From positions 1 to 50,428 of the forward strand of contig NZ_AOIO01000021.1 of NCBI RefSeq assembly GCF_000337555.1: a DNA stretch of 50,428 nt, written 5' to 3'. This DNA is from Natrialba asiatica DSM 12278. GTDB lineage: Archaea; Halobacteriota; Halobacteria; Halobacteriales; Natrialbaceae. The stretch's first letter is position 1; each line of letters opens with the position of its first letter. Shown one piece after another: positions 49,733-50,428 of the stretch. The notes under the pieces are model-generated. The model was given only the letters and a program-made list of their open reading frames with translations, was not told where the DNA came from and did not search any database. The translations under genes were made by a program, and so were the position numbers.

Positions 49733-49920
49733 GATCGGTCGGGGCTTTCGCCGTTAGCCGACCTAGTCACCCCACCGGGTAGTGCGTTTCGCCTTCGATC
49801 CCCGCAGACGGCTGTACGCGCCGACTCTCACCCGAACGAGTTCGGATATGCTGCCAAAAGCAAGTTGTCGAACACTTGCGGTTCGTCGTTCGTCGTTCGT
49901 CGCTCGTCGCTCGTCGTGCG
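49733..49920. other. Spacer with a seven-base tandem repeat
   Basis: 188 bases between the SafE gene and the HMG-CoA synthase stop. It holds the seven-base repeat listed separately and no gene. Confidence 0.5.
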
Positions 49921-49922
49921 TC
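49881..49922. repeat. Seven-base tandem repeat GTTCGTC
   Basis: Six units: GTTCGTC three times, GCTCGTC twice, then GTGCGTC. The last unit touches the stop codon of the HMG-CoA synthase gene. The period of seven is not a multiple of three, so it is not a coding repeat; copy number could change freely. Confidence 0.85.
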
Positions 49923-50397
49923 AGTCGACGTACCGATACTGTCGTTCGCCCATCCGGCCCCAGCCGTCGAAGACGAACTCCTCGTCGGGCGTCGTGAACT
50001 CCTCGACGTCGACGTCCATCTCGTGGTTGTGGGCGTCGTGAACGTCCTCGTAATCCGCCCAGCTCAGGTCGTAGCGGGCCGCAAGCTGTTCGTCCACGTT
50101 TAACGCCTCGATCTCGTCCTTCCAACCGTCACGGACGGTTTCGGTGTGAATTTCGGCCTGCGCACCGCTTCCGTACGAGCCGATGAGCAGCGTCTCACCG
50201 GTTAGGTCGCGGCCGTCCTCGAGTGCTGACTTGAGCGCGCTCGCGCGGGCGACGTGAACGGAACCGGTGTACCAGTTGCCGACCTCGCGGGAGATCGACA
50301 GCGTCGGATCGATCATCTCCGCGTACCACTCCTGGTAGCGGTCGGTTTCCTTGAGTTCGTCCATGTACTCCCGCAGGGCCTCGCGGTAGTCCTCGTC
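49921..50397 (-). CDS. HMG-CoA synthase, N-terminal part missing
   Basis: The last 158 residues of 3-hydroxy-3-methylglutaryl-CoA synthase, which condenses acetyl-CoA with acetoacetyl-CoA to make the mevalonate precursor. Seen: DPTLSISREVGNWYTGSVHV, the family's GN-x-YTGS motif, GETLLIGSYGSGAQAE with the conserved GSGA loop, and a C-terminal end NHEMDVDVEEFTTPDEEF. The enzyme is normally about 440-460 residues. Real sequence ends at 50397; codons beyond it read MYKRQ but come from the library adapter, so the true upstream part is missing from the assembly. Confidence 0.93.
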   Translation of the reverse strand, partial: DEDYREALREYMDELKETDRYQEWYAEMIDPTLSISREVGNWYTGSVHVARASALKSALEDGRDLTGETLLIGSYGSGAQAEIHTETVRDGWKDEIEALNVDEQLAARYDLSWADYEDVHDAHNHEMDVDVEEFTTPDEEFVFDGWGRMGERQYRYVD

Positions 50398-50428
50398 CTG
50401 TCTCTTATACACATCTCTGAGCGGGCTG
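50398..50428. other. Nextera transposon adapter (artefact)
   Basis: CTGTCTCTTATACACATCT is the 19-base Tn5 mosaic end used in Nextera libraries, and the following CTGAGCGGGCTG matches the start of the older Nextera adapter 2 in reverse. These 31 bases are not part of the organism's genome. Confidence 0.97.

Follow-up and report, generated by a model that had tools for sequence, protein, structure and literature searches.

The last 31 bases of the window, by which we mean the whole 50,428-nucleotide stretch of Natrialba asiatica DSM 12278 DNA analysed here, are synthetic library DNA carried over by Epicentre Nextera tagmentation, read-through and scaffolding, a reading to which we assign a probability of about 98%. 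The HMG-CoA synthase gene in which they lie is interrupted inside a scaffold, rather than cut off, and the feature, an assembly artefact of a kind already known, does not reflect biology. Positions 50398-50416 read CTGTCTCTTATACACATCT and match the Tn5/Nextera mosaic end with 0 mismatches, the sole match in the window, where the chance expectation is 0.01 matches even with up to three mismatches permitted. Directly beyond this exact 19-bp mosaic end, positions 50417-50428 read CTGAGCGGGCTG and match Epicentre adaptor 2, the sequence of which is printed in PMC3699833; mosaic end and adaptor 2 together supply 31 of the full 38 bases. The original prediction had named a mosaic end followed by the older adapter 2, with genomic DNA giving way to adapter at 50397/50398, and was correct on both the identity and the breakpoint. 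Table 1 collects the coordinates of the features discussed below.

Table 1. Adapter, gene and break features at the HMG-CoA synthase locus of N. asiatica (assembly G000, contig C21) and the corresponding breaks in two other assemblies.
Feature	Location	Strand	Details
Tn5/Nextera mosaic end, synthetic	50398-50416	-	exact match; minus-strand reading AGATGTGTATAAGAGACAG
Epicentre Nextera adaptor 2, inner 12 bases, synthetic	50417-50428	-	minus-strand reading CAGCCCGCTCAG
HMG-CoA synthase, genuine C-terminal 158 codons and stop	49921-50397	-	NF041302 positions 289-443 of 443
HMG-CoA synthase, N-terminal 271 codons	C21 50430-51242, outside the window	-	true ATG at 51242
Artefactual ORF, 163 aa, start MYKRQ	49921-50412	-	GTG inside the mosaic end
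Break in this assembly	G000:C21:50398-50429		residues 272-287 missing
Break in G004	G004:C13:88610-88639		residues about 264-276 missing
Break in G008	C123 end and C124 start (two contigs)		residues 267-299 missing

The contig is 391,165 bases long in total, and the window covers its positions 1 to 50,428. Position 50429, just outside the window, is a single N, and coding sequence picks up again at 50430. Since the adapter is followed by one N and then by coding sequence, it sits at a scaffold gap that was written as one N. The original prediction had instead placed the end of the contig at 50428, with the gene truncated by it. That version can point to the window stopping at the exact last base preceding the N, and to true contig ends holding 15 of the 26 mosaic-end copies of the assembly, but with the contig extending to its full length and the gene resuming right after one N we consider it very improbable. 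A scaffold misjoin could revive it, but the halves of this single-copy gene keep their order and orientation.

Both halves of HMG-CoA synthase are present in order on the contig. The C-terminal part matches the profile for haloarchaeal HMG-CoA synthase (NF041302) with an E-value of 2e-79, at a score that falls below the full-length cut-off because the match is partial, and it is 97% identical to the closest intact relative (G005). Measured against this relative the lengths balance, with 271 residues, 16 missing and 158 residues adding up to 445. The gap hides approximately 48 genomic bases (16 codons), a figure derived from the relative and not from the N. asiatica strain itself. A search of the assembly for the missing bases, using the relative's 119-bp segment as the query, returned only this locus, as a broken alignment, together with short weak matches. 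With some 48 bases replaced by 32 (31 of adaptor and the N), the frame is shifted and ORF callers therefore see two pieces; no complete uninterrupted HMG-CoA synthase frame exists here, as adaptor and N break it. The two halves resemble other haloarchaeal HMG-CoA synthases in aligning end to end with intact relatives, and differ from them in the interruption by adaptor and N, the loss of 16 codons and the shifted frame, all of which are artefactual. The earlier statement that the enzyme is cut off at 50397 applies within the window only, as the N-terminal 271 residues lie just past it on the same contig. A simple repeat of GTCGTTC/GTCGCTC-type units is also present in the window at 49880-49919, a short way downstream of the codon that terminates HMG-CoA synthase.

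The interrupted gene is read as two false products. The MYKRQ start of the HMG-CoA synthase piece, suspected from the outset to be an artefact, is indeed one: the minus-strand ORF that holds the C-terminal part begins with this peptide, which follows directly from the mosaic-end sequence. An in-frame ATG had been proposed as its start, but the in-frame start is the GTG at 50412, the only ATG, GTG or TTG in the MYKRQ frame (228 open codons upstream hold no other), and the ATG at 50414 belongs to a different frame and reads MCIRD. The second false product is a 309-aa ORF that starts at the true ATG, carries the true N-terminus, and then runs through MCIRDR into a false tail. MYKRQ had additionally been described as a known sign of adapter carry-over, for which the literature searched offers no support; the only paper found with the string concerns a fish oestrogen receptor variant and leaves adapters unmentioned.

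The same arrangement recurs throughout the assembly. Its 49 contigs contain 26 exact mosaic ends, compared with 0 matches for a reversed control, and all 26 point outward, reaching either a contig end (15 copies) or a single N (11 copies). Between the mosaic end and the contig end or N, the 26 copies have a further 0 to 17 bases in agreement with adaptor 1 or adaptor 2, with a one-base slip within the adaptor in one copy. At one gap (C3:117657-117720), adaptor 1 is found on one flank and adaptor 2 on the other. The TruSeq adapter AGATCGGAAGAGC was not found in this assembly.

The junctions between adapter and genomic DNA carry the target bias of the transposase. Among 196 distinct junctions, drawn from this assembly and from other genomes, 102 have G as the first genomic base (background mean approximately 72) and 115 have C as the ninth (background mean approximately 69). 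When junctions are scored against the Tn5 target consensus, GNTYWRANC, the score has its maximum at offset 0 (3.44 versus approximately 2.2). An N lies within 60 bases of the junction in 140 of the 196 cases, and the end of the fetched stretch does so in 54, some of which may not be contig ends. The junctions are products of in vitro transposition, displaying the target preference of Tn5.

Among 125 genomes of the family, mosaic end plus adaptor is present in 17, at 4 to 34 copies each, and the other 108 have exactly none; within the genus, the mosaic end occurs in five of seven genomes. The adapter distribution is one that tracks batch, not phylogeny. An alternative source for the 31 bases would be a natural insertion into HMG-CoA synthase, by a Tn5/IS50 end or a transposon related to it. 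The mosaic end does derive from Tn5 ends and a Tn5-like target preference is present, but nearly every copy that is long enough to tell bears a synthetic adaptor tail, two different tails occur, and each of the 26 copies then reaches an N or a contig end. Nor would natural insertion sit well with 108 family genomes free of any copy, or with a site at which about 48 bases are missing and not 9 duplicated. Because of the adaptor tails, the gaps and the batch distribution we reject natural insertion, the chance of which is next to negligible.

Carry-over from the library probably proceeded in a few steps. In vitro Tn5 tagmentation (Epicentre Nextera) attached mosaic end plus adaptor 2 to the genomic DNA at 50397, and reads from short fragments would have continued past the insert into adaptor sequence and been incompletely trimmed. 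Genomic coverage presumably failed at this position, which would have left the adaptor as the only extension open to the assembler and produced a contig tip ending in adaptor. Paired reads would then have scaffolded this tip to the next contig, with the gap written as one N at 50429. The gap falls within one HMG-CoA synthase gene and yields the two false ORF pieces, of 163 aa and 309 aa.

Many haloarchaea have deposited contigs with an identical 31-mer (AOHX, AOIB, AOJG, AOLX and others), among them contigs of the AOI, AOJ and AOL series. In a project covering 59 haloarchaeal genomes (PMC4230888), libraries were PCR-free and of the Epicentre Nextera type, the transposase was home-purified and assembly was done with A5; E. 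coli and vector contigs were removed, and the main text does not contain the word ‘adapter’. From the genus and the library type, we infer that the present assembly stems from this project. The adaptor-2 31-mer is not restricted to haloarchaea, as it also occurs, often adjoining runs of N, in several Streptomyces and Actinoplanes drafts (P008/P011/P022/P065/P265_Doro1 and rh34; scaffolds KL568-KL571 and KL585, and NTGZ records). No exact copy of the 31-mer was found among viral contigs. A megablast search of plasmid and phage collections with the adaptor-2 38-mer gave no match, a result that is little informative with so short a query.

Adapter carry-over at contig extremities has been documented in microbial genome databases, for TruSeq adapters (Moeller et al. 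2024, PMC11536531). The copies described here are alike in their position at contig extremities, their outward orientation and the limit on contiguity that accompanies them, and they differ in consisting of Epicentre Nextera adaptor 1 or 2 and in that 11 of 26 are located inside contigs, beside one-N gaps. What we add to the documented carry-over is limited to this, that many copies are hidden in scaffolds beside one-N gaps. The relevance is one of data hygiene only. A gene that adjoins a one-N gap, in the present draft or in related haloarchaeal ones, may appear as a pair of false proteins (MYKRQ... or ...MCIRDR...). Screening with trimming at contig ends alone would overlook a good part of the copies, since 11 of 26 here are internal to scaffolds and border a single N.

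Of the 17 family assemblies that bear the adapter, 14 have an intact HMG-CoA synthase and three a broken one, namely the present assembly, G004 and G008. All three breaks fall in an overlapping stretch of 36 codons (264-299). One possible hypothesis, which we hold only tentatively and think somewhat more doubtful than probable, is that codons ~264-299 of HMG-CoA synthase present unusual difficulty for sequencing or assembly with libraries of this type, as three independent breaks would suggest. The shared break may reflect coincidence or a cold spot in coverage. As causes of the break, a strong hairpin and extreme GC content were considered and rejected: neither was seen to an extent that would account for it, and the DNA folding over the missing stretch in the relative is unexceptional. 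In G004, the N of the gap in HMG-CoA synthase lies between two different remnants, one TruSeq-like (AGATCGGAAGAGC) and one from a mosaic end, and the flanks of the gap look like a mixture of two library types.
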